NCBI GenBank assembly: GCA_008933995.1
Contig: WARS01000010.1
Coordinates: 12,740,996-12,804,995, forward strand
Length of the DNA stretch: 64,000 nt
Direction: 5' to 3'
Source of the DNA: Datnioides undecimradiatus
Lineage: Eukaryota > Chordata > Actinopteri > Lobotiformes > Datnioididae
Under the pieces are notes generated by a model. That model was not told where the DNA came from. It saw only the letters and a program-made list of their open reading frames with translations, and did not search any database. Positions 41,401 to 64,000 of this stretch are shown one piece after another (the first letter of the stretch is position 1; every line of letters begins with the position of its first letter). The translations under genes and the position numbers were made by a program.

Positions 41401-42472
41401 ATCAGATGGCATCTGACTGTGGAGACCGGTCAGCACAGATGGAGAGTAAGATGACAGATCTCAGTCAGTTAAACATGCAATGTGTAAAAAGAAATCAAAG
41501 AATGTAAGAAGACAGGTGCAGAAAATGGAAACAGTATAAAACATGTAATGTAATCGATCAGTGAGAATGTGAAGGCAGACAAAAGCAGAGATGGTCTGTC
41601 AAAGGCAAAGGGGGAAACGTTTGTCTTCAGTTTGTGAGGTTCAATCATGTCTGACACCCTCATTGTGTGTTTGGGCTCTCTGCTCCAGGCACATGTCTCT
41701 GCTTGGTCTTTTAACTCATACAACAGTCTTACGTGCGGATCATACAGATCACTCTGCTCAGAGAACAGGTACTGCTTCAGTGAAGCGTGTAGGAGCACAG
41801 GACACCAACTTATAGAGATCTGGGGAAAGAGAGCTGTCTTTGAATCTCTAGAGAAACATTTTCTTCTCAGTGGTTTCAGATAAAATACAAATGTTTTTTC
41901 AGAACAAATCGCTTCTTTATATCAGACTGATAGCAGCCTGTACAGAGTCAGTCATCTATTCTCCCAGCGGTAAAACGTTCTGTTTACAGTGTCAACAGCA
42001 TTGCATCCAGTATAGGCAGACACATGTCACTCAATAAGTAATAATCACTGTTATCACTGTGCTTCCAGTTGGGCAGATAAGCAGTGTACTCAGGACCATG
42101 ATGCAGAGATGCAGGCTCGCATTCACTACATTCATAGAACAGAATTCACACATTCTCACTGTTGTCTTTAAAGACTTTCACGCCAGTGTCTTTGTAAAGC
42201 TGAAGAGTTCAGTTTGAACAGGAGAAGGACTGCATTTTTATCGTTCCAGATCATTTATGTGTGTGCCGAGCCTGGTCCACTTCACAAAATATTATCCAGC
42301 AACCAACAGCAGCAATGAACAGCTGTGGTTCACCTGCACAGCGCTGCAGAAGAAAGTGCAGGGTGAATAAAAGCAGCACAGGACAATGGGATATTTCATC
42401 AAACTCTCCTAGCTAATCTATTATTGCTATGTATTCTGTGTGATTCCTAATTAAAATCACTTTTCTCTGTAG
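35405..42472. other. map4 intron
   Basis: A 7 kb intron. A sparse set of POU-octamer motifs (38469-38476, 38613-38620, and a near match at 38837-38844) and AT-rich homeobox-type sequence at 39240-39900 suggest possible enhancers. A 9-bp perfect inverted repeat is at 37239-37264. An X-box-like motif is at 41353-41366. No coding exon is supported, and none is required because the flanking exon phases match. Confidence 0.7.
41353..41366. promoter_or_regulatory. X-box-like motif in map4 intron
   Basis: GTAACCTGGGCAAC resembles the RFX X-box (two half-sites around a 2-bp spacer), with an A at the third position that departs from the stricter consensus. It is an isolated motif and may be chance. 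Confidence 0.2.
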
Positions 42473-43632
42473 TGAAATCGGACCCGATGGAGAAGACCGA
42501 GAAGGAGGACAAGCTGGAGGAGAATGTAAAGAAGGTGGACCTGTTTGACCCCCTGGATAAAGCTGAGCAGAAGAGCGTGAAGGTTGAATTCGCAAGCAGT
42601 GAGGCTCCATCCAGCGTGCAGAAGGAGACGGAGAAGGAAAACCTGATTGAGATGCAACAAGAGAAGGAGAAAGAGGCCGACAACATGAAAGAGAAGGAGA
42701 AAGAAGCAGAAAAGGTGAAGGAGAAAGATAAAGAGGCAGAAAAGGTAAAAGAGAAGGAGAAAGAGGCCGAACAGGTGAAAGAGAAGGAGAAAGAGGCAGA
42801 AAAGGTAAAAGAGAAGGAGAAAGAGGCTGAACAGGTGAAAGAGAAGGAGAAAGAAGCAGAACAGGTGAAAGAGAAGGAGAAAGAAGCAGAACAGGTGAAA
42901 GAGAAGGAGAAAGAAGCAGACAAAGTGAAGGAGACAGAGAAACTGGCAGAAAAGGTGGAGGACAAGAAGGAGGCAGACAAGGGGAAAGAAAAAGAGACAG
43001 AAAAAGTGGAGCCAGTGCAACAGAAGGCAGAAACAGAGCAGAAAATACACAAGGTAGAAGAATCACCAGATAAACAGGTGAAGACTGTGGACAAGACAGA
43101 AAAAGTAGAAACCACAGTGGAGAAAACTGAGAATGTGGAAAAGGTGGAGAAAAACGAAAAGTCCAAAGTGGAAGAAAGAGCTGAGAGCACAAACAGTGAG
43201 AAGGTCGAGAAACCAGAGGTGAAGGAAGGTAAAGAGCAGCTCCTGGACAACGTGGAAAAGAGCCCAGAGCAACAGGTGACTCCTGTCAAGCTGGATACCA
43301 GGGATGACAGTCTGGAGAAGAAGGCTGAAACAGAGATGAAGACGACCGCAGAGGTGGAGGAAGCCAAGAAAGAAGAGGCCAAGACCGGCAACGAGGACAA
43401 GGTGGAGAAACCGTCTGAGAAGCCGGCGGAAGAACCACAGAAGAAGAGCGAGAAGGAAGAGAAGCAGGACAAAACCCAGGCTGACAAAAAGACTGTGGAG
43501 AAAAAGGATGAGAAGAAGGACAAGGCTGCAAAAGCAGACGGAGGAGACAAGACCAAAAAAGCGAAACCTGCAGCTAACGGAAGCAGCGCCACGCCGAGCA
43601 AAGAGCTGGGAGGTGCAGACAAGAAGACAAAG
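42473..43632 (+). CDS. map4: map4 exon, Glu/Lys-rich charged region
   Basis: A 1160-bp exon with acceptor ttttctctgtag and donor aaag/gtagga. It begins by completing a split codon (VKSDPMEKTEKEDKLEENVKK) and ends phase 0. Of its 387 codons most are Glu, Lys, Val, Asp or Ala. The middle contains tandem decapeptides VKEKEKEAE(K/Q), followed by less regular E/K-rich sequence such as VEKTENVEKVEKNEK. This pattern favours a long charged single helix or coiled coil in the projection region. The exon can accept the splice from 35404, 16779 or 11079, since all end phase 1. Long open frames on the opposite strand here are mirror images of the E/K codons. Confidence 0.9.
42655..42954 (+). repeat. Coding minisatellite, 30-bp units
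   Basis: About ten tandem 30-bp units within the exon: a degenerate first unit (QQEKEKEADN), eight close copies at 42685-42924 of (V/M)KEK(E/D)KEA(E/D)(K/Q/N), and a degenerate last unit (VKETEKLAEK). Adjacent units at 42805-42894 are nearly identical in DNA as well as protein, which points to recent unit duplication. Confidence 0.93.
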
Positions 43633-44403
43633 GTAGGATACGGTGGTGTTCCTCCTCACACACTGATGTCACCTACAGAATCTGCTTTCACCAAGCGTGG
43701 GTCAGGCTGTTTGAGTAGGATCGCAACCTGATCCACTGGGTTATGATGTCAGAGCATACATACACACTGCACACTAGTTAACAATGCATGCTCTCCTCCT
43801 CCTTCGTGGTCCATCAAGCTTCGACATGGTGAAGAGAATCTTGGTTCTGCCAATGTGTTAGCAGCCACCCAGCTCTGAGCTATCACAAGCACATACGTCC
43901 TTACCTGATCTTCCATCAGCTGATCAGGTCTTGGTGTTCACCTTAAAGACCCTGACCCTAAAGGAACCAACATGTTTGATATCCTCAGCCTTTGTGTCGC
44001 TTACATCCCTCGTTAAGTCACATGACTAATTGTCGGGCTCAGATGTGACCTTGGTGGAGCGCTAACTGTTGGTGAAAGCGGTTGAAGAGTTTGCTGACAG
44101 GTTAATGTTGTGGGTGAGTTTAAATGACAGACAGCCATCCATCATGCATGCTGCTGAAGCTTCTTCTGCTCCTCCCTGCTGTATACACGCAGTTAAAACA
44201 CAGAGCCATAAAACAGTATTAACAGCCAAACATTAGCCCCAATGCTAATTATTATTTTGCCACATTCTGATCATTTGTTTTATGATTATAATGTGCTGCT
44301 TAACTTCCCTGCATTATCATTGCGCATCACCCTTATTTTTTCCTTTTCTTTGCTCTCCCTCCTTATTTTGCCCTCCATCATATGTCCCGGTACCACATCG
44401 CAG
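43633..44403. other. map4 intron
   Basis: A 0.77 kb intron; the previous frame runs on to a stop at 43729-43731 if it is retained. A T-rich tract precedes the next acceptor. Nothing else is seen. Confidence 0.8.
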
Positions 44404-50477: not shown

Positions 50478-50570
50478 GTTCAGATAGTCTCCAAAAAGGT
50501 GGACTTCAGCCACGTCACCTCACGCTTGGGCTCCAAGGACAATATGAAGCATGTTCCTGGTGGAGGGAAT
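50478..50570 (+). CDS. map4: map4 tubulin-binding repeat 2
   Basis: A 93-bp symmetric phase-0 exon with acceptor tgtccctttag and donor aat/gtaagt. The peptide is [15 protein letters not shown] then [16 protein letters not shown]. It matches repeat 2 of MAP4 ([13 protein letters not shown]...[14 protein letters not shown]). The cysteine found at this position in tau and mammalian MAP4 (SKCGS) is replaced by Leu (SRLGS). In tau this is the alternatively spliced repeat, and the symmetric phase here would permit the same. Confidence 0.96.
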
Positions 50571-51676: not shown

Positions 51677-51789
51677 GCGGTGGCGATGTGAAGATCGAGT
51701 CCCACAAAGTGAGCTTCAGGGAAAAGGCTCAGTCCAAGGTGGGCTCCATGGACAATGTGAGCCATTCACCTGGTGGAGGAAACGTCAAG
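51677..51789 (+). CDS. map4: map4 tubulin-binding repeat 4
   Basis: A 113-bp exon, phase 1 to phase 0, with acceptor aatgtgcgctgcag and donor aag/gtgaga. The peptide is [20 protein letters not shown] then [17 protein letters not shown]. It is close to mammalian MAP4 repeat 4 (GDVKIESQKLNFKEKAQAK...). The donor must choose between two downstream ends: 55282 (MAP4-type C-terminus) or 55958 (tau/MAP2-type); both accept phase 0. Confidence 0.96.
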
Positions 51790-54700
51790 GTGAGATGCTC
51801 ACACATGAGGACGCTTTTGGCCTGTGTGCTGCTCTGTTCTCACATTCCCGTGCAGTGGAAGTGGCTGCAGATCAGTGGACTTTCCTGTAAGAGCCAGCCA
51901 ATCACAGTCAAGATCAGTCACAGTACATTTCACAGTATGTTAGCAAATGAAAATTCAGTTCCACTTGCTTCAGGTAGTCATTACACCATGCAAAGTGTTG
52001 GACGCTGATAACAGGACACGGTAATTTGATTAGTCATGATGGCAACAACACTTGTATTGCATGACTCAGCTTTGTTATTATATGCAGGTGCATTTGTGCA
52101 TTTGTGTCTGGAGGAGAGCAGTTCGTTGTGGTGTTGTTTACCCCCTCATATGAATATGTGTGTTGCTGCAAATCCAACAGCATTTGATGTAATGCATCAT
52201 CTTAACGCTGCACGAAGAAAGAAGCTTTTAAATAGGTTTTAAAAAGACATCTTTAGGTGTTATTCATGAAGGTTTGAACCAGTTGCCACAACTAAACAAC
52301 CCTCCAACTGCCAGGTTCAAATTAAAATGATGCTTCATCCTGACTGGGGCAAAGAAGTATGAGCCCCGCCCACTTCGAAGCAGTGTGAAGACCTCCGAGA
52401 AGAATACAGAAATCTCTCATGTGAAATAATCCACACTTTGACAGATAACAGTGTGTCTGCATGAGACCCAGTCACTCTGAGTGACAATGCGATAATCTGG
52501 CTAAATAGGTTTCAGAGCAGAGGGCTGGTTTCAGCTGCTATTAAAGGAATTATCTGCGTAAGAGTTCTGAAGCATTATGACTTGAGGAGTTTGAAAATTA
52601 GTTGTCACACCTGCATCACTTTACCATCTTCAACACACTGTCTAGAATTCCTAACGCAAGTCAAGTTTGAACTAGTCCACACCTACTGATCAGCACCAAG
52701 CATTTTGCTCAGCAGCTAAACAGCTGATATGGGACAACTGACACAGACAATGATTGTAAAGGGAAAAGCTCGTGAATTATCAGTCTGTGGGTTGTTACAA
52801 TGAAGGTTTGGAATGAAAACAGAGCTTTTCTGTGTAGACTGTGCAGCAATGTGACTCTGCAAAGGTCCTCAGAAGGCTGCTTTCTCAAACAAGTAACTCA
52901 TTAATTCGTTAAGATTTTCACTTCACTATACTTTATATGCTTTTCTATAGCTTTACATTTTTTTGCAATTAATACAAAAAAACTGTTAAGTTAGCACTTA
53001 TCAAGGACATATCAGGATCCTGACATGATACTGACATGTCCATGATTGGTGAGCATCGGCTGACCAATGGCTCAGTGCGACTCAAGTCTAAATCACTACA
53101 TTTACTGAAAACAGAAGGACATCTTCTTCTATCGTAGGATCAGGATTGTGAGAACCTTTATTGAGCTGTGGAGCCTAGGGAGCCTGGCCATTACATGATG
53201 ATTATTGAGGGACACTGCTGCTGACTCAGTTCCTTCACTTCCTGTGCATCTGCTTGTTAAATAAATAAAAACGTGTCATGGGGTTATTTGTGTATGTGGA
53301 GAAAACAGTTTGAGGCTTTTCATTCTTGTCTCGTTCCACCACTGTGTTCATAATGACATCTAAAAGATGCTGGGTGGCTTCAAGCTCCTGTCACTGATGA
53401 CAATGACAGCCTGTCATAAACCATCTGCAGCAACCTGAAACATCTCAAACCCTCCGCAGCTGCAGTCGGTTCCCCTTTTTCCTGGCCTTTCGTCCTTCTG
53501 TTATGTCTGGATGCTTCCCTGCAGGGCACAACGCAGCTCAGCTCACATTTAGAGAGAAGATGGGAAAACATAGAGGCGCACTGAATGAATGGCGACACGA
53601 GGGCATATGGCATAATCTTAGTCATCCATATGTGATAGAAAAGATCGGGCATGGTCAAAAGAAAACATTTCAGGGTGTAATTGAGTTACAGAATCATGTG
53701 TCGAGTCGTTGTTTGGGATGGGCTCGTTGATCCGGAATGATGTCACCTGTCCCCTCAGCCTATCGCAGCCCATCTGTGTTTCATGATCACTGCATGATCC
53801 CATCAGTCACTCACGTTCTCATCCTCACACACCGTTTTGCATAACCAGCGATCGTCTGCGCCCTCCAACCGAGTGAGGACGCGCGATCGTGACGACAGCT
53901 AAAAATAGCCTGCGCGTAATAACCTGTCTGAGAGCGCCGTTTACTTTTTGACAAGTGTCGACTGAAGTCTATTTTTATAAAATGTCTGTAGAGCTTTGAA
54001 GCACGCTCTTTATAGCAACAGCAAAAACAGATATTTCTGCCCTGACTTTCTATTTGTTTTGCTGGAAAGATGCTGCACCGTGCAGTATAAATAATAGGTC
54101 AGGTTTTATTCCACAACAGTGTAGGCTCAGTGAAACATGAGGCCCCACACCCTGTCTCACGCTGTGTCCCTGTCCTTACATGTTCACACCTGCTGCTGTT
54201 ATCTTTTGCGTGGTAGAGCACACAGAAATCTGTATTGATCCTTTTTCTGAGTGTGATCATGTTCCATTAAAAAGTCCAAGCCAACAAAGTAGTGTGTGTG
54301 TGTGTCTGTCAGTGAGCCACACTGTTGAACTGGCTCACTCATATGTTACCTCATTACCATGAACACACACTCGCACAACGTCCTGCTGCCCCAAATACTC
54401 ACTAGAGCATCAAATGTGGATTCATCCGCCACTGAAACTAGTCCCTGAGACTCTCAGTGATTCACCCAGTTTGAGTAACATTTGGTGGAAGTAGAGTAAC
54501 AATCTAGTCAATCTAGTTCTAGGATATTTACTTTGTAGGAAACTTGTTTTTTGAAATGACAGTATTTATGAGCTCACTGTTCCCTTCACTCAGTAGCAGT
54601 CTGTACTGGGGCTGGTTGCTACAGTCGGAGTAGAGGTGGAGGACTAAGCCGTTGTTGGTTTGGGTGTTAGTGGGATTTGTTGAGTGAGTACAGGCGATGA

Positions 54701-55281
54701 GATGCCTTCCCAGCTGTAACTGAGACTGTTTACCTCTGCAGCTTGTTGAACTCTGTGTAAAGTATAAAGCCATTCTGGCCTCCGCGTCATTGATTGGGTA
54801 TTTACTTTGTTCCTCCTGAGTTTTGTCTTGTTACATTGAGACCCACCAGGGTAGAACAGCATTTTTACGCATGTGTATATGAGATCATGCTGAAAGGTTT
54901 GTGCTTCAGGAAAATCTTCATTTCTACACATCTGCTTTTCTATACGACGTGTTTTCATTTGTTTCCTGTCACTGCATTCATTAGGCATGTTCAGCTACTC
55001 AGTTTGAATGTTACGTTGCACTCCAGTTATTACTTTTTGTTGTTCCATCCCCCACCACCTTAGTCTGGCTCCAGATCTTTTAATGTTTTAATCAAGACGT
55101 CTGCCTCACCAGAGTTTTTATAATCACAAACTGTTTATCTGGATCATCTGTAAAGAGCTTCAGGCAGAGCTTTATTCCCTTTCATAGAAGCCAACAAATG
55201 AAGTGCTGTTGTATGAGATTTGGAGCCAGGTTGTTCCATCCCCATCCCCACCGATTGACACGCCCTGCTATTTGTTTCTAG
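51790..55281. other. map4 intron
   Basis: A 3.5 kb intron before the alternative C-terminal exons. AT-rich segments lie near 52900-53000 and CpG-containing sequence near 53840-53940. No exon or other gene is supported. Confidence 0.75.
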
Positions 55282-55474
55282 GCTGAGGGGGTCCAGGAGA
55301 CAACAGAGGGGAATGGGACTCCCCTGAGCGGCACCGCAGCCCCAGCCCCAGGCTCCGAGCCAGGGCAGGCAGGGAGCCCTGCTGCCCAGGAGAATGGGCT
55401 GAAGGATGGGGCTCCTTGTGATAGCGAGGGCCTCCGGGAGCCCCAGGCTCTGGACTCATGCATCCCAGAGACAA
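55282..55474 (+). CDS. map4: map4 C-terminal exon, MAP4-type acidic tail
   Basis: A 193-bp exon, phase 0 to phase 1, with acceptor gctatttgtttctag and donor acaa/gtaagt. The peptide is AEGVQETTEGNGTPLSGTAA, an acidic Gly/Pro/Ala-rich tail, ending REPQALDSCIPET. This matches the mammalian MAP4 tail that ends ...AQTLDSQIQETSI. The last base plus the next exon gives Ser-Ile-stop. If it were spliced to 55958 instead, the split codon would read AAT then TGA, an immediate stop, so this exon and the tau-like tail are mutually exclusive. Confidence 0.92.
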
Positions 55475-55790
55475 GTAAGTTTGTGTGTGTGTCAGCCTCA
55501 TCTGCTGTCAGCTCAGGGTTTGAGCCCCATGTAGCAAACACAGACTGAGGAGACACACAGGGAAAGCCAAGCCCAGTGGCATCCTGTTGCCAGGAAACAT
55601 CAGAAACACTGCATACTGTATAATAAATGAACAAACGGTGTGTTGGATTTGACTTTTCTCCTTAAATGAGATGAAACTGTCCATCAGAAGGTGTGTGTGA
55701 CTGTATCTGTGTGTGCTGTATCCATCATCATGCTGCCTGCAGTCCAAAGCACCTGATCACACCATCATCTTTTGACTTCTTATCTTGCAG
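55475..55790. other. map4 intron before last MAP4-type exon
   Basis: A 316-bp intron with an AATAAA at 55622-55627 that would truncate the transcript if used. A good acceptor (gacttcttatcttgcag) ends it. Confidence 0.8.
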
Positions 55791-55798
55791 GCATCTAA
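55791..55798 (+). CDS. map4: map4 last coding piece, completes ETSI-stop
   Basis: Eight coding bases (GC ATC TAA). With the final A of the previous exon they complete Ser and give Ile and stop: ...PETSI, the exact C-terminal four residues (ETSI) of mammalian MAP4. The rest of this exon is 3' UTR and contains the tau-like coding segment. The tiny coding part is supported by the acceptor, the phase and the match to the conserved end. Confidence 0.9.
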
Positions 55799-55898
55799 TT
55801 CTTCTATCCCTCTGCCCTCCTCATCTCAACCCCCCCACCACAACACCTCCTCCCCCTCCTCACCTCCTTCAATCTGTATTTTTGCTGTCCCCTTTACC

Positions 55899-55922
55899 TC
55901 CTCTCTCTCTCTCTCTCTCTCC
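55899..55922 (+). promoter_or_regulatory. (CT)n polypyrimidine tract before tau-like exon
   Basis: An uninterrupted CT repeat, followed by more pyrimidines up to the acceptor at 55956-55957. Such CU-rich tracts are typical targets of PTB-type splicing repressors (family knowledge); its role in choosing the C-terminus is inferred. Confidence 0.45.
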
Positions 55923-55957
55923 TGTCTGCCCCTCTCTTTCAAACCTCTCTGCTGCAG

Positions 55958-56251
55958 ATTGAGTCTTTCAAGCTCAACTTCCGCGAGAATGCTCGCTCTC
56001 GCACGGACCACGGCGCCGACATCATCACCTGGCCAGCCCCCCAGGACAACAACAGTCCCCACCCACACGGTTCCTTCTATTCTCTACACCAGAACCACCA
56101 CCACCACAACCACCACCCGACTCCTCGCAGCGTGTCCCTCATCGAATCGTTGGCCTCAGCAGGCTGTGTCAGCTCCCCCTCAGCCCCCTCCTTGCTGCAT
56201 CTCCAGGGGGAGGTCCAGGGGGACAACAGGAGCTCCTTAGAGGGATCTTGA
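55958..56251 (+). CDS. map4: map4 alternative C-terminus, tau/MAP2-like
   Basis: 294 bp including the stop (97 residues), with acceptor aacctctctgctgcag. It begins IESFKLNFRENARSRTDHG then ADIITWPAP, closely matching the segment after repeat 4 in tau (IETHKLTFRENAKAKTDHG) and MAP2 (IDSQKLNFREHAKARVDHG). It continues with a His/Asn-rich stretch (SLHQNHHHHNHHPTPRS) and SVSLIESLASAG, which resembles the (N/S)LLESPQLATLA part of MAP2. It is in frame only when joined to the repeat 4 donor at 51789. It lies inside the 3' UTR of the ETSI isoform. Presence of the exon is well supported; its use in transcripts is inferred. Confidence 0.85.
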   Translation: MESFKLNFRENARSRTDHGADIITWPAPQDNNSPHPHGSFYSLHQNHHHHNHHPTPRSVSLIESLASAGCVSSPSAPSLLHLQGEVQGDNRSSLEGS

Positions 56252-57037
56252 CCTTTCTTGCCCCCATCAGGCTCTGAACACCCCTTTTAACTTAAGTCTG
56301 TCACTGCAAATGTTTAAAATCACCCAATAGCTGTGCCACTCTAGTATCAGCTTCATGTTATCATGCTTCTCTCACATCTGAGCTCATCGCCACGCGCTAT
56401 CGCCCTCAGTGTCACCATCCCTGCCCTTCTGTATTTGGCTGAAGTGACAGTATAAACTCAGCTTGGGCCTCAGTGGAAATCTACGTGGAGGCAAACGAGT
56501 GGCCTGAAAGGTTTTTCTCACATGCTTGGTAGCGCATTTTGCAAGCTGGCTGACTCGAAATCATTGGGTTTCTGTTGGATCTGGCCCCGGCCTGGTGACC
56601 CACTATCATCATCATCTCACCTCCAAACGCCACAAAAACAGCCACGATCACTTCATTTGTCGACTGAGCAGCGTGGAAACCCTCTCGGACTCACCCATGG
56701 CTTCTGTCACAGTATCTCTGTTCCTCGTGACTTTAGGGGCTGTTTGTTCCCAATAACCACTTACTCTTTGCTTCAGTAACATCATGGTAGTTCATTGTCC
56801 ATCTCATCTGCTTCATCGCCTCCTCTTTCTTCACGATCACTTATCATAAACAAGCTGACAAACAAAAACGCTAGACAACAAGTAGTCCGTTTAACTCTTA
56901 CTTCTCTGTGTTTGTGATGATGTGTTTGAGTGATAAAATTGTGTAAAAATGAGCTTTGGTGTTCTGTTCGGATCTATTATTTCTGTCTTTCTCGAGTTTT
57001 CTTCTTTTCCTCCTAGTTTCTGAATTTTCAAACAAGG

Positions 57038-57052
57038 TTTTATTTATTTATT
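57038..57052 (+). promoter_or_regulatory. AU-rich element in map4 3' UTR
   Basis: Overlapping ATTTA pentamers (TTTTATTTATTTATT). Such elements can affect mRNA stability (general knowledge). Confidence 0.4.
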
Positions 57053-58147
57053 GTACATTTCTTTCTGTATAAGCAATACAGCAGACGGTCTTTTTTTCTC
57101 CAGTAGCACTCAGAAAATCTCGGAAACACGCACAGGTTTTTGAAAACCAAGACACACAGTGAGGAAGGAGATGAGTTTCAGAGGGAGGATGAAAGTGAGG
57201 AAATGTGGTGTAACCAGCGGGGTGAGAAAGAAGCATCTGAGACGTGTTTCAGAGTCACGGCAAAGTTGGCAGTAGAGGAAGTGGAACTCGCAGTCCAGAG
57301 GGAGATGAGGAAGATGTCTAAATGTCCCTGAGGTCAAAGGAGCTGTGTGTCTCGTATGTGCCTCCTGTCCTTCTTACCTGCAAGCTACAGAAAATGAGGA
57401 TGACGCAGGCTCACGCCCACAACCGCTCAGAGAAAGAGAGTAGCAAACAGACGCAGAACGCTCGAGGGCAACCTGGTATTGCTGTTTTAAGGAATTCTGT
57501 AAATCAAGCTGTCCCGGTAGTTGTGTGTGTAGTCGCGGTTGTCGTCTTGTTTCAGGTGTTTCTACGAGGGTTCGGTAGCATGTGGTTTGGCATTTGATAA
57601 AAGCTTCAGCTGAATACAAGAACATCTGTGTTGGGCACTTTTCTTGCTGGAGTGTTGGCAGTGGAACATAGTGCGGCTTTCTCTTCTTCTCTTGTAGCGA
57701 TGTATTCAACTGTTGCCTCCAATTGCCTTTATAATGCATGGCCACATTAGATATTACTGTATAACACCCAGAGCTGAGAGCCTCTGTGCATTATGACTCA
57801 AAGTGTTGTAGTTCGGTACCGTATGTACGTCTCCGGGGCAGAGCAGCCAGATGGCACGTTGTTACTGACGTGAAGAAGTGATTTATATCGTGTTGTTGTT
57901 TAGTTTCATGGTCGCTCGCTCCAAACTGGCTCCGATTGTGTTCAGTGTTTTATGTCACTGATAAAGCAGAAATCACTGGCCTGGTCAAATTGAGTCTATA
58001 TTACAAATATAAGGTTATAACAGTTCACCTTGAATTGTTCAGTGTCGCTTCTGCTACCAAACATACTTTTGCCGACCTGCATCAGTTTTGTGAGGCTTCA
58101 CGAGTAAGCCGTAATCAGAGTATATTTGTATGCTATCACTGTACGGA

Positions 58148-58161
58148 GTTGTTATGGCAAC
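58148..58161. promoter_or_regulatory. X-box-like motif in map4 3' UTR
   Basis: GTTGTTATGGCAAC fits the RFX X-box consensus RYYNYY-N2-RRNRAC with the typical AT spacer. It lies about 4.4 kb upstream of the ift74 ATG. Function unproven. Confidence 0.25.
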
Positions 58162-60508
58162 CGTGTTAGCTGACAGGTTATTTCCTGCAGATCTCCAGCA
58201 ACCTCTGTATTTAGCCTGAGTTGTTTGTCCTTCTTGCAAATGGACCCATTCAGTATTCAAGCTCCTTTGGTTTGGTCTCCATCAGATCCTGAGGGAAAGA
58301 TCTGGCTTGATCGTGACTGGGTTCACCACCCAGCTACTCACATTGCCCGTCAGCAGTTTGTTGCTGGGCAGGAAGTGTAATTAAGGTACTGACACATTTC
58401 AGTTCAGGTGTCACCAGGGCGAGCTGCAACACATATCTTGTACACCCAAATTAAAAAGGGTTGGGTTTTCACACAGTATCCTGATTACAGTTATTATATT
58501 TGGATAATGATTAAAGGTAAATGGGATTAAAAAGCAAGTGGGTCGATGGTTAATGCCTTAGCAGAGATGTTGTAAAGTTCAGATCTATTCTTAAAATCAG
58601 TTTTAAGACCAAAGCTCCATTGACTGCCCCCCTCGAGAGAAGATCAAACTATTAAAACACTCCTTAGTTTCAAAATGTCACTTTACTAATGATTTCTGTA
58701 GACGCTTTGACGGAACTAAATTGCACCTTAATGCTTTAATATATGAAAGAGGCCTACTGTGATGGAGAAGTGGTATTTAATTAACTATTTAACAACCCCT
58801 CAATGAGCAAATGATCCCGAGTGACCTAATAATGAATGAGCTTTTGCTTGCAGTGAAAAGCAATAACGTGAGACGGTTCCCCTTCTGTCCAATCATGAAA
58901 CACTCAAAGTCCTAATTTTGTTTTATATTGGAAGCCCTTAAAACTGAATATTAGTAAAGCCTTTTATGAGCGATCAGGGGCAGCAACTTCTAATTAATGT
59001 CTTCTTTAGGCGAGAATGTTCCACACGCAGATGTTGGAGTCCTTTTCTGCCAGTTGAGGGCTGAGTGTTGCTGAAAGCGCAGCTGTCATCGGATTGGCTG
59101 AATCGCTTTGTTTGTGCCGCGACGGTCGCCTCGCTAAATTTGTCCTTGTGCCTGTCAACAACTGTGTTTTAGCTTTGCTTTTAGCCCGGACCTTTGGCTT
59201 ACCAATACTTATGAGATTGCACACGGATGTATATAGATATTTTATTGCTGATGCACTCTTTGAGGCCCTGAAAAACACCAAAATATTACAGTACAGCAAC
59301 AGCACTAGGGGGGTTTGGTGGTTGAGGGGTTTAAAGGTTGTTCAGAAAGGCTCTTTTGTCCATGTACCTCTCTGGCTCTGAGGAGGGGGAAGTGTTTTTT
59401 CATGACTATTATGACTATTATTCTGATTCTTGGTAGGACAAATTGAAAAAGTCTGCCTTTTTCATTAGAAAGGGGCCACTGAAGTGAAAGAATGTCTTTT
59501 GAGATATATTGTACTAAAGACGCAACACTTTTGTATATGTATTTATCGTTGTGTTCCTGTAGCCTCGTGGTGGTTGTGCTCTCATGGTTGAAGGGATTAT
59601 ACTTTTGATTTGTGACCGCCAGATTCACAAACTGTCTCCTGGAGCTTTTCCAAGGATGAGCATGAGACCTGAACCCAGTGCGACACTTAGAAAGTCTTTA
59701 AGATCGCAATAAATCAGATTTTATTTCAAGCGCTTTTAACAACAGCTTAATTTCAAAATGTTGTAGCAATATAAAGCTTAATTAATACGTTTTTTAACTA
59801 AATGTGTAACGCACATTTATGCCACCACACTATTAAATCATGCTTGCGAGCCCAGTCTTAAGAGATGAGAATAATGTTCTGACTGGCTGTTTAACTTCTC
59901 ATTCAGGACACAGTGACCCCTGCAGGTTCAAATGATCGTAGAACAAAGCTGAAGGGGACTGATGCTAAGGCACCTGAAACACATGACACTGTTTGTCACA
60001 GTGGGCGCAGGGAAGCAGACCCTAAGTGTATAGGCCTGTAATCTGGGAGTACTGCATATCAGAACATACTGGCTGCTACATACGCCGTTCAGAAAGCAGC
60101 AACCTGCCCAGGAGAGTCACACAAACACACACCGAGACCCTAACACATCCTTGTCTAAGGTTGAGAAGACTAATTGTAGTTGTCTGGTTGGTTTGTGTGA
60201 TAACCGCTCCACAGTAATCTATCCCAGGAGCGTTGTAGAGCTTCATCTGCACTGCCGCTGCTCTCATACCAGACATGCAAGTGTAACACTAGCTAATAAA
60301 CACCTACTGTACCTGCAGAGCATGCTGAACTACAATGGGATGTGTTAGGTAGACTTACTATGTCATTTGCAGAACCTCCTAATTGTTTTTGTGGTTTTAT
60401 TTTATTTCTTCTTTTTTTTTTTCATTAATTTGAAATTTATTTTTTGGTTTGGAAAAAAAGTGTTTATTGTGATTACTTGTTAATTAGTGATGTGATTGTT
60501 GAACATGA

Positions 60509-60514
60509 AATAAA
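60509..60514 (+). terminator. Probable map4 poly(A) signal
   Basis: AATAAA preceded by T-rich sequence and followed, 20-40 bases on, by a GT/T-rich stretch (cagttgggttcggctttcttctgtttg). It is the best match of the three AATAAA hexamers after the stop codon. Confidence 0.65.
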
Positions 60515-60534
60515 ATGGACTAAAACTCTCAGTT

Positions 60535-61429
60535 GGGTTCGGCTTTCTTCTGTTTGAAATATAGTCATAATTATAGTTATTAGTTCCACCTGTGCTTTTC
60601 CTCTTATTACAGGTGAAAAGGTCTGAAATTCACCTGTTATAACTTTCACATTGGAATACCTCAGCTCAGTATGTGATATTCTCCTGCACTGTTCTGGACA
60701 TAAGTAGACTAATTGTTATTTCAGGGTAACTTCTTGGGTTTCATTAGAAAAGAAGCTGAGATGCAGGAGCAAACTTTGAACTCATATCAAGTTAATACTG
60801 TGTGTAGGAGCGGTGGTGTTCTGCTGAGGCTGAAAAGACCAACTCGGACCTTGACTTGAGACCTAATTGAATAGAAAAGCTGACATGTTTCATGTAGTTT
60901 GCATCTGTAAATGTACAGTTTTTCTTAAAGTCATATTTCATAAATGTGCTGTAAGTTTTAATATGTGGAAGTGTTAGCAGTTGGGGTTTAGAATCAAATG
61001 CATAGGTCAAAGGTTCAAAGACCTTACCTTAATGGGACCTGGTGTTACACTAGGGTTTAGGTCCACCTGCAGGAGAATTTGCTTGAATACTGAGGGCCCT
61101 GCCCTGAGTATCTCTTTTTCAGTATAATAGAAGATCCATCTAAAATGAGGTTCCATAACCCAATTTGCATAAACTACACAAAATGTAATTTAACACTAAA
61201 TCAGGGACAAGTTGGTCTTGGTGACCTGCAGCATCTATACAATCTATTCTCATCTCATTGCTACTTGTCCTCTTGGTCCTTGTTCTTTTTAATAATAGGT
61301 GCAGCAATAAATCAAATTTAGTCAAGTCAATTTAAACAAGAAAGAAAAGAGAGAGAGAGGCTTTCACTCCCTGACACCTTGACGTGCTCATCCACCAGGC
61401 TGCTGTCGGGGTCTTGTTCTGCTCTTGGG
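60535..61429. other. Intergenic sequence between map4 and ift74
   Basis: About 0.9 kb of AT-rich sequence with no open frame of note. I see no feature in it. Confidence 0.65.
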
Positions 61430-61620
61430 CGTTAGGGGGCAGCAGCGCTTCCCAACTCCCACTCTACCCGATTTCAGGAGAAGAAGACGGTTGCTGTGGC
61501 AACGCTAACATCGGCCCCAGTTACTTACCGTCTTACAGCCAACGTTAGCTTCACAAACAGACGCTTCGCTTGAAAATTATACAGACGTATATCGTCGACG
61601 AAAACTACCGTGAAGGAACT
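61430..61620 (+). promoter_or_regulatory. ift74 promoter region with X-box
   Basis: A GC-richer block than its flanks, containing GTTGCTGTGGCAAC at 61490-61503, which fits the RFX X-box (inverted half-sites GTTGCT and GGCAAC, 2-bp spacer). RFX factors bind such sites in promoters of many ciliary and IFT genes. The start of transcription is probably just downstream, with a non-coding first exon. No TATA box is obvious. Confidence 0.65.
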
Positions 61621-62518
61621 CAGTTAAATGTGAGAAACACTTCTTAGTCTATCCGCACTGTTCTGTGACAACGAGCTTGCTAACGCTAAAGTTAGGTTAG
61701 CACATTCTGACGTTTGGTTAGCTAAACACGAATGCTGCAGCGACATGAGTAGCTAAGTTGTAGGTTGGTTAACGTAACATTAGTTCGTAGTATTCGCTCT
61801 TTTACGTGTGTATCTGCAGTTATGCTAACGCTGTTGGTTGGTGGTATAACGTTACTATTACTTGGGTGTGAATAACTTATACCCGTAACCTAGTAACGTA
61901 ACAAACCACCGTTACTCCTGCGGCTAACATGGTCTCGATAGTCAGGGCCACTAAGCTCTCTGAAAGTCTTTCAAGCTAGATGTCGAGGTTTTATTGTTAG
62001 CTTTCAGTCTTAAACACCTGAAATAAATGCTAACGGTTAAACTGGTAAAAAATAATTAATGTCTTTTTCAATAACAAATCACAACTTTCATGTCTTGAAG
62101 CGTGAATGTGAGTCGCTTAAAAAACCAAAGTCAAGGGACTGTGTGCAAGATGTGACGCAGTGTTAAATACATAAAAGTGAACGTGTCAGTCAAAGGACTA
62201 TTTTGAATCCGAAGATACTTTATTTGTTTATGTGATCTGTGTGACAAGGACACAGTCAGTTACATCCTAACATAATTCGGTTTTGGGGTGACCCTCCTGT
62301 ACTTATGGAGGCACAGGACTACATTTTCCATATCTCCCCCTTTGGTTATTAGCTCGATCAGTCAAGTAAATTGGAATCAGGTGTGGGCAGAGCAGGGACT
62401 GATAATATACACTACAGCAAATATACTAACAAGCACTGAGGTATATCTGCACCATGAGGTTCCAGGAGTTTCCAAATGTTTGATGTCTTACTAGTTATTG
62501 TAATTGTAGTAGTTTTAG
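61504..62518 (+). other. ift74 5' leader exon and first intron
   Basis: Contains nine GCTAAC/GTTAGC hexamers between 61504 and 62034. A non-coding exon is expected somewhere at 61504-61640 but its donor is not clear. An acceptor at 62517-62518 (tagtagttttag) precedes the coding exon. Confidence 0.5.
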
Positions 62519-62523
62519 ACATC

Positions 62524-62652
62524 ATGGCGAGCCAGCGGCCTCCCTCAAGCATCGGCCGCCCCATGAGCCGCAGTGGATCTGTGATTCCTGGTGCTGGAAG
62601 ACCCCCAACAGCAATTAGACCTCCTCCTACAGCTATACGTGTTGCAACTGGA
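62524..62652 (+). CDS. ift74: ift74 coding exon 1
   Basis: The exon starts at ATG with A at -3 and G at +4 and ends at ggа-type donor gga/gtaagt, giving 43 codons, phase 0. The peptide MASQRPPSSIGRPMSRSGSV continues with GRPPTAIRPPPTAIRVATG. This matches human IFT74 (MASN..., ..RPVSRGG.., ..IRVATA). IFT74 pairs with IFT81 in the IFT-B complex that moves cargo along cilia. The basic, disordered N-terminus seen here is the part reported to help bind the acidic tubulin tail. Confidence 0.93.
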
Positions 62653-62863
62653 GTAAGTCATCTGCGACTTGGATGCATGTCACACTGAGATACATGTTCT
62701 CTTCCTGTGAGCATATTGGGTACTTTGTTGAAGTCACAGCAACAGCAGTAACATGTGATTACACACACAGCATATGTGACTTTCTTTAGATGTTGCCCTG
62801 TTGGTAACTAGCATTAGCTTTTAACACTTTTCCACAAATGAGCTAATGTTATTATCATCCCAG

Positions 62864-63005
62864 ATGGTTCCAGGTACAAGTGGTCATCCTGGTATGAGAG
62901 GCGGCATCCCCATCGCCACCCCTGGAGTCCTGTCAGCGCCAATCAAAGTGACTGACAGGCCGGTAACCCAACAGGGGCTCAGTGGGATGAAGACTGGCAT
63001 GAAAG
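62864..63005 (+). CDS. ift74: ift74 coding exon 2
   Basis: 142 bp, phase 0 to phase 1, with acceptor attatcatcccag and donor aaag/gtaagt. The peptide [20 protein letters not shown] then [20 protein letters not shown] and GMKTGMK matches human IFT74 ([25 protein letters not shown]). It is still within the basic N-terminal region. Confidence 0.95.
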
Positions 63006-63171
63006 GTAAGTTTTAAGAGACATCAGCTCATTCTTTTCACATGGATAGATGTGTAATTGTGTCGTTAAACGTTAGCGCATGACACTGTGAGTCTAGTTAA
63101 AACATTTTATTAGCACATGTCTCACTCTGTCTTTCTCTCCTTCACCATCTACCTCCTTCCATCCCCAAAAG

Positions 63172-63220
63172 GACCTCAGAGACAGATTCTGGATAAGTCC
63201 TACTACTTGGGCCTTCTTAG
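63172..63220 (+). CDS. ift74: ift74 coding exon 3
   Basis: 49 bp, phase 1 to phase 0 minus one base (ends AG of a split Arg codon). The peptide GPQRQILDKSYYLGLLR matches human IFT74 exactly. The acceptor (tccccaaaag) is preceded by a pyrimidine-rich tract further upstream, and the donor is ttag/gtaaca. Confidence 0.95.
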
Positions 63221-63418
63221 GTAACACATGCAGCTATTATTCCTACTGTTCTGCCACCAGCTAAATTATTGTGTAACCAGGTTGAGCCCTTATTGGTATT
63301 AGCTTACACTGTGCGACAAGTGTTTTCAGCAGGGCTGCCATTTCTAAAACATACAGTTTGTTACACACTGGTTAGTGTTATCATAAAAATGAATGTTTTG
63401 TTGTTGTTGTGCTGTTAG

Positions 63419-63517
63419 GAGCAAGATCAACGAGTTAACCACAGAGACCAGTAAACTGCACAAAGAGATTGACAACTACAACCAGGAGAACTCTGTTTAT
63501 CTCTCCTATGAGAAGAG
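63419..63517 (+). CDS. ift74: ift74 coding exon 4, start of coiled coil
   Basis: 99 bp, phase 2 at both ends, with acceptor ttgttgtgctgttag and donor agag/gtgagt. The peptide [20 protein letters not shown] then [13 protein letters not shown] corresponds to human IFT74 (SKI.ELTTE..KL....[14 protein letters not shown]). It starts the coiled coil that mediates pairing with IFT81 (family knowledge). Confidence 0.95.
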
Positions 63518-63876
63518 GTGAGTTGGGTTTTTACATTGGCATATTACATCTTGAGATCATAACAGACTATGGCGCCCCACAGCCTTCAGGTGTTTATAAA
63601 TGATCGATCAGGCTCATCCACTGCTTGTTTGTTTATAATAATTATTTAATCAGAGCAGCACGTTTCAGTGTTGGCTTGATTTAGATAACCCTCTTCTTCA
63701 ACCAGGAAGTGTTGGACGAGAAGTTGAAACCTGTTTGCACTATAATCTTACCAACTGTCATATGAACACGGGGGTTCCTTTTAGCATTCACACTTGATAT
63801 AAATGATTATAATGAGCAATAAGATAACAACCCTTTCCTGAATCACCAACACTTTGTTGTCTTCTTTCCTCTGCAG
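63518..63876. other. ift74 intron
   Basis: A 359-bp intron with a T/C-rich tract before the acceptor cttcctctgcag. Nothing else is seen. Confidence 0.9.
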
Positions 63877-63937
63877 AGCTGAAGGCCTGGCTGTAGAGAT
63901 TAAGGATCTGCAGGGCCAGCTTGCTGACTACAACATG
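63877..63937 (+). CDS. ift74: ift74 coding exon 5; gene continues past window
   Basis: 61 bp, completing the split Arg and ending phase 0 at atg/gtaaaa. The peptide [20 protein letters not shown] matches human IFT74 ([20 protein letters not shown]). The five coding exons sum to 480 bp, 160 codons of a protein usually about 600 residues, so most of the coiled coil lies beyond the window. Confidence 0.94.
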
Positions 63938-64000
63938 GTAAAAATGGTTTTAGAGATTGTTTGTGTTTATTTCAAATGAGCAGCCTCTTGATAATCATCT

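Follow-up and report, generated by a model that had tools for sequence, protein, structure and literature searches.

Predicted alternative C-terminal ends of a MAP4-type gene in the fish Datnioides undecimradiatus, probably explained by an ancestral last exon and a frame-switching exon

Mammalian MAP4 ends in ETSI, and among the human MAP4 isoforms in databases there are some with a tail like that of tau. The genes of this family have similar 3' parts, MAPT, MAP2, and MAP4 being described as congruent in their last five exons (Suendermann et al., 2016, PMC4815063), an arrangement that fits a common last exon. The R-prime segment of tau belongs to the core of the fibrils formed in Alzheimer's disease (PMC8197432; PMC12036459) and is reported to affect cooperative microtubule binding (PMC12036459, preprint). 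Reference human MAP4 is described as resembling tau over tau residues 251-358 only (PMC11102361); because the likeness is limited to these residues, the tau-like end with R-prime would be absent at least from the tail of the reference human protein. For mouse, the reverse primer with which oMAP4 and mMAP4 were cloned reads, in the sense direction, CCAGGAGACAAATTGAGA (Mogessie et al., 2015, PMC4423121). It translates to QETN-stop followed by GA, and it places ATTGAGA after ACAA in the cDNA. Alternative last-exon isoforms of mouse Map4 that differ in their neurite and soma distribution have been reported as well (Ciolli Mattioli et al., 2018, PMC6411841). The sections consulted of these two mouse papers (PMC4423121; PMC6411841) describe none of the ends as tau-like, and the one on alternative last exons does not state the tails (PMC6411841). 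Among the titles listed by our searches, which are poor in subscription literature, none dealt with a MAP4 tail resembling that of tau, and the string RTDHGADI was in no paper. Six tail fragments matched 22 papers, every one of them through a single tau fragment, the other five giving none, and MAP4 end strings led only to an irrelevant virus paper. For titles combining MAP4 with a PDZ-binding motif, nothing on such an ETSI end was among the matches listed (the best 12 of 70).

Here, we describe the 3' part of a MAP4-type gene of Datnioides undecimradiatus, contained in a stretch of 64,000 nucleotides that we refer to as the window. Tubulin-binding repeats (PF00418, four matches) stand in tandem before the C-terminus, and the features that follow them are collected in Table 1. 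When repeat 4 is joined from 51789 to 55282, the acceptor at 55791 (cttgcag, then GCATCTAA) completes the end PETSI-stop; when it is joined from 51789 to 55958 (ctgctgcag, then ATTGAG), the reading continues into a tail of 97 residues that begins IESFKLNFRENARSRTDHGADIITWP. The acidic tail of 66 residues has 11 D/E against 2 K/R, and its ETSI end carries a TSI motif, that is, S/T-X-hydrophobic at the C-terminus. Skipping of the 193-base exon would in principle make a choice of tail possible in this fish gene. Further upstream, at 42451-43731, the window has an open frame of 426 residues with many repeats of the type KEKEKEAE(K/Q)V, apparently a MAP4 exon.

Table 1. Features at the 3' end of the MAP4-type gene, in window coordinates.
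Feature	Position	Strand	Description
Repeat 4 (R4) exon	51677..51789	+	leaves phase 0; donor gtgaga; PF00418 3.2e-16 for R4 + tail
Acidic MAP4-type exon	55282..55474	+	193 nt (3n+1); AEGVQETTEG...LDSCIPET + A; ...tttctag before, gtaagt after
AATAAA	55622..55627	+	inside the intron after 55474; motif only
Last-exon extension, ETSI-stop only	55791..55957	+	GC ATC TAA, stop 55796-55798; 81% pyrimidine
Tau-like reading, last exon	55958..56251	+	97 codons; stop 56249-56251; R-prime-like segment IESFKLNFRENARSRTDHGADI
AT TGA	55958..55962	+	in the other frame, with the A of 55474, gives N-stop and hence ETN
Probable end of long common 3' UTR	60443..60515	+	73 bp, 81% identical downstream of C32; AATAAA at 60509 in both; blastn E 5e-12

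The original prediction, made from the sequence of the window, quoted splice sites, phases, and frames that are all present, and its claim that the ETSI and the tau-like tails are mutually exclusive in frame is borne out by them. It had also regarded the joining of 55474 to 55958 as a barrier between the two ends. This junction (AGAGACAA, then ATTGAGT) does stop at once, reading ETN-stop, but it is not merely a dead end: the same ETN end is found in the mouse cDNA cloning primer, which leads us to reject the idea that the junction is non-productive and makes the picture of a mammalian MAP4 tail of the ETSI type only an incomplete one (PMC4423121). The mouse cDNAs accordingly carry the ETN end, and the bases after their stop fit the start of a tau-like last exon; the primer alone does not fix the mouse exon boundary, and the uMAP4 primer of the same paper sits elsewhere and gives no firm information (PMC4423121). 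Mouse Map4 seems to share with the fish gene an acidic exon spliced to a last exon whose opening ATTGA ends the reading immediately (PMC4423121), and alternative 3' ends of Map4 are described for mouse neurons (PMC6411841).

The segment at 55958 was predicted to be what follows repeat 4 in tau and MAP2, and it matches human tau and, in the same genome, the last exon of each of four further family loci (tblastn E 4e-9, 3e-7, 3e-7, and 6e-7). Repeat 4 plus the tail aligns with human tau (PDB sequences) collinearly across the junction, over residues 1-60, with a domain i-Evalue of 3e-20, a value that includes repeat 4 in its query and does not apply to the tail alone; the window tail starts like human tau after repeat 4. 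A chance frame is ruled out by this homology to four family loci and to human tau. With the tau/MAP2 last exon, which holds the R-prime pseudo-repeat, the window tail shares its position after repeat 4, its phase 0, the start IE[ST]..L.FR..A..R.DHGA[DE]I, and within it a conserved segment of the RTDHGADI type. Beyond about residue 23 it diverges strongly from tau and MAP2. It is 97 residues long and rich in His, Pro, and Ser, whereas the four tau/MAP2-type tails have 59-73 residues, and it ends in ...NRSSLEGS, without the extreme C-terminus ...LAKQGL that is present in three of the four other tails. Outside the family, the tail alignment gave 139 pattern matches in prokaryote genome contigs and 62 in viral contigs, of which none was confirmed, and the ETSI tail had no match among PDB sequences up to E 1.

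An open tau-like frame is by itself weak evidence of translation: 151 of 2000 mononucleotide shuffles leave the frame free of stops as well. In comparison with the four other loci, however, 62 of 92 residues are identical over the first 23 codons while 20 of the 25 comparable four-fold sites differ, and because residues are conserved while four-fold sites differ, the tau-like frame of the window has probably been translated. The window copy keeps 17 positions of a 20-position family consensus (window tail included), while the second MAP4-type locus, C32, keeps 3.

In the 581-Mb genome, PF00418 has at least 28 matches at six MAP2/tau/MAP4 loci, namely C389 (the window), C32, C20, C483, C200, and C468. 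The MAP2 projection domain (PF08377) matches C468 clearly, C483 weakly, and no other locus, by which C468 is clearly and C483 weakly of the MAP2 type; C20 and C200 are of the tau type by exclusion only. The window gene has no PF08377 match and has an acidic C-terminal exon, as expected of a putative MAP4 rather than MAP2 or tau. In the regions read (about 10 kb each), five loci (C389, C200, C468, C20, and C483) have the tau-like exon, and C32 does not. The four tau/MAP2-type loci have only the tau-like last exon and no acidic exon in these regions (n=4), whereas the window has one. Of the six loci, only C389 and C32 yielded the acidic exon, both in the regions read and by a genome-wide search with the acidic tail, which gave a weak third match (C337, E 0.13) that contains a stop. 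The tail starts in all five loci with Ile-Glu directly after the AG acceptor, encoded by ATTGAG in four and ATCGAG in one. Among the 314,616 strand-bases searched (some of which overlap), four sites have a pyrimidine-rich YAG directly before ATTGA, and each of them is at a family last exon (window, C32, C20, and C468). The original prediction had offered retention of an ancestral tail or a lineage-specific one; since start, phase, and acceptor position are the same in four tau/MAP2-type last exons, and the C32 last exon also starts alike, retention is favoured. At C20:2167641-2173371, the tau-type locus has seven PF00418 matches, compared to the usual four; repeat expansions in icefish and other teleosts are mentioned in the literature (PMC4815063).

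C32 is similar to the window in its acidic 3n+1 exon, its last exon starting ATTGAGTC, the ETN-stop that results when the two are chained, and the end of its 3' UTR, and different in that the tau-like frame is broken by a stop at codon 5 and the end of repeat 4 has diverged. The acidic exon measures 193 nt with the chosen acceptor (190 nt, likewise 3n+1, if a neighbouring AG is used), and about 1.4 kb past it a pyrimidine-rich acceptor precedes the last exon (C32:357883, minus strand). The repeat 4 exon has lost the usual PGGG ending (...VGSGNGQTNGHK). Over the 23 codons compared, 4 of 23 residues are kept and the differences from the window are evenly spread, with 14, 16, and 15 by codon position. 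Past its first bases, alignment of the last exon to the tau-like tail is not significant (71 of 500 shuffles reach the score for DNA and 164 of 1000 for protein); the best tblastn match of the tail in C32, TYHGAVTSLWPRP (E 0.11), lies in that last exon and frame. Because the remaining exon is without significant alignment, its reading as a decayed counterpart of the tau-like exon is based on its position, its acceptor, its eight initial bases, and the end of the 3' UTR. The window copy appears to have been held as protein while this counterpart decayed. An SI-stop acceptor comparable to 55791 was not found in the 4.8 kb of C32 that were read, where there is one weak candidate.

That the tau-like piece lies within the 3' UTR of the ETSI form, as predicted, agrees with the distribution of polyadenylation signals. 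Neither AATAAA nor ATTAAA occurs between 55791 and 55957, so a last exon starting at 55791 would probably run on through the tau-like frame. The predicted separate, nested exon gives way here to a better description, in which the piece is part of a common last exon lengthened via 55791. From 55200 to 64000, such signals occur at 55622 and then from 58450 on, and an unspliced, intronically polyadenylated end at 55622 is conceivable. The 73-bp stretch that is conserved, with its AATAAA, downstream of both MAP4-type genes, 4.2 kb past the tau-like stop in the window, suggests one common polyadenylation site and a long common 3' UTR in both.

The 167 nt from 55791 to 55957 contain no AG before the final two bases, and AG-free gaps of this length or more number 6 among 4561 AG gaps in the window. 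Two of the six end at MAP4 acceptors (50476 and 55956), one of the two lying before the repeat exon at 50478. The corresponding AG-free stretch is 54 nt in C32 and 26-101 nt at the four other loci. PTB motifs number 14 before 55958, and the other two acceptors have 4 and 1, as a raw count without shuffle control. An AG-free, pyrimidine-rich tract of this kind could mark regulated splicing. The idea of a distant branch point gained no support from the comparison of loci: the AG-free stretch is rare in the window but not common to C32 or the four other loci.

We consider it probable that an ancestral last exon of the family and a 3n+1 acidic exon of the MAP4 type, acting as a frame switch, together account for the three ends. 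Position 55958 would be the start of the last exon inherited by MAP2, tau, and MAP4, and in the MAP4 type the 193-nt acidic exon between repeat 4 and this last exon would shift the frame. If the acidic exon is skipped, repeat 4 would continue, in phase 0, as the tau-like tail and its R-prime pseudo-repeat. If the acidic exon is spliced in, the outcome would depend on the acceptor that follows: with 55958, the reading of the last exon would move by one frame and ATTGA would supply the N-stop of the ETN end; with 55791, an SI-stop would complete ETSI and the tau-like frame would become 3' UTR. All three forms would end in one long 3' UTR near 60.5 kb. R-prime would add a further contact for microtubule binding or cooperativity, which the acidic tails would not, and the tau-like form may thus bind microtubules more tightly or more cooperatively. 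Class I PDZ ligands follow the rule S/T-X-hydrophobic at the C-terminus, which the ETSI end would fit and ETN would not. The use of each junction, its tissue pattern, and its functional effect are predictions from frames, splice sites, homology, and the selective conservation of the tau-like frame. Counting against the proposed frame switch are the unalignable remainder of the C32 exon, the lack of a comparable SI-stop acceptor in C32, the divergence of the tail after about residue 23, and a reference human end that is not tau-like.

The frame lost from C32 at codon 5, together with a reference human protein that ends without a tau-like tail (PMC11102361), would be expected if the tau-like frame were a relic that is no longer translated and forms only the 3' UTR of an acidic-tail MAP4, as is apparently the case in C32. 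We judge this unlikely for the window, where, unlike in C32, the first 23 codons are conserved in a protein-type manner with scrambled silent sites, all 97 codons are still open, and the strong acceptor is intact. There is also little to recommend a gene with two real ends only, tau-like and ETN, in which the acceptor at 55791 is accidental and the 167 nt are a long pyrimidine tract: cttgcag is a good acceptor, and the ETSI end of mammals would hardly be reproduced by chance. It would nevertheless agree with a tract that is 81% pyrimidine and has no internal AG, with C32, which supports ETN and has no clear ETSI, and with the ETN of the mouse primer (PMC4423121).

The tau-like frame is present in the window gene only of the two MAP4-type loci, as it would be if the last exon had been gained in this lineage from a tau or MAP2 gene via gene conversion or exon copying. 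Such a gain is highly improbable, given that the silent sites show saturation in comparison with each of the four possible donors, which rules out a recent copy from tau or MAP2, that the rest of the tail differs, that the C32 last exon has the same start and position, and that the mouse cDNA also has ATTGAGA after ACAA (PMC4423121). A frame switch at an ancestral last exon remains our preferred reading, and an extended version of it is possible but rather doubtful. MAP4 would have kept a three-way tail switch since before it separated from MAP2 and tau, with an R-prime tail for more cooperative microtubule binding, ETSI as a PDZ ligand, and ETN as a neutral end, and with a single 3' UTR for all three. 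Of the two copies left by the fish duplication, one would have kept the whole switch and the other the acidic side only, and the CT-rich, AG-free 167 nt would be a regulated element (distant branch point, PTB-type control).

The original observation is thus real and largely explained by an ancestral last exon combined with a frame-switching exon. It illustrates how a single last exon can encode two protein ends that have nothing in common, the Ile-Glu codons of one concealing the stop of the other. If human MAP4 does have such tau-like isoforms, the arrangement would be widespread and only undiscussed. Some MAP4 isoforms could then be recognized by antibodies against the R-prime segment of tau, and a broadly expressed relative of tau that adds or drops R-prime through a single splicing decision would serve as a natural experiment on the role of R-prime.
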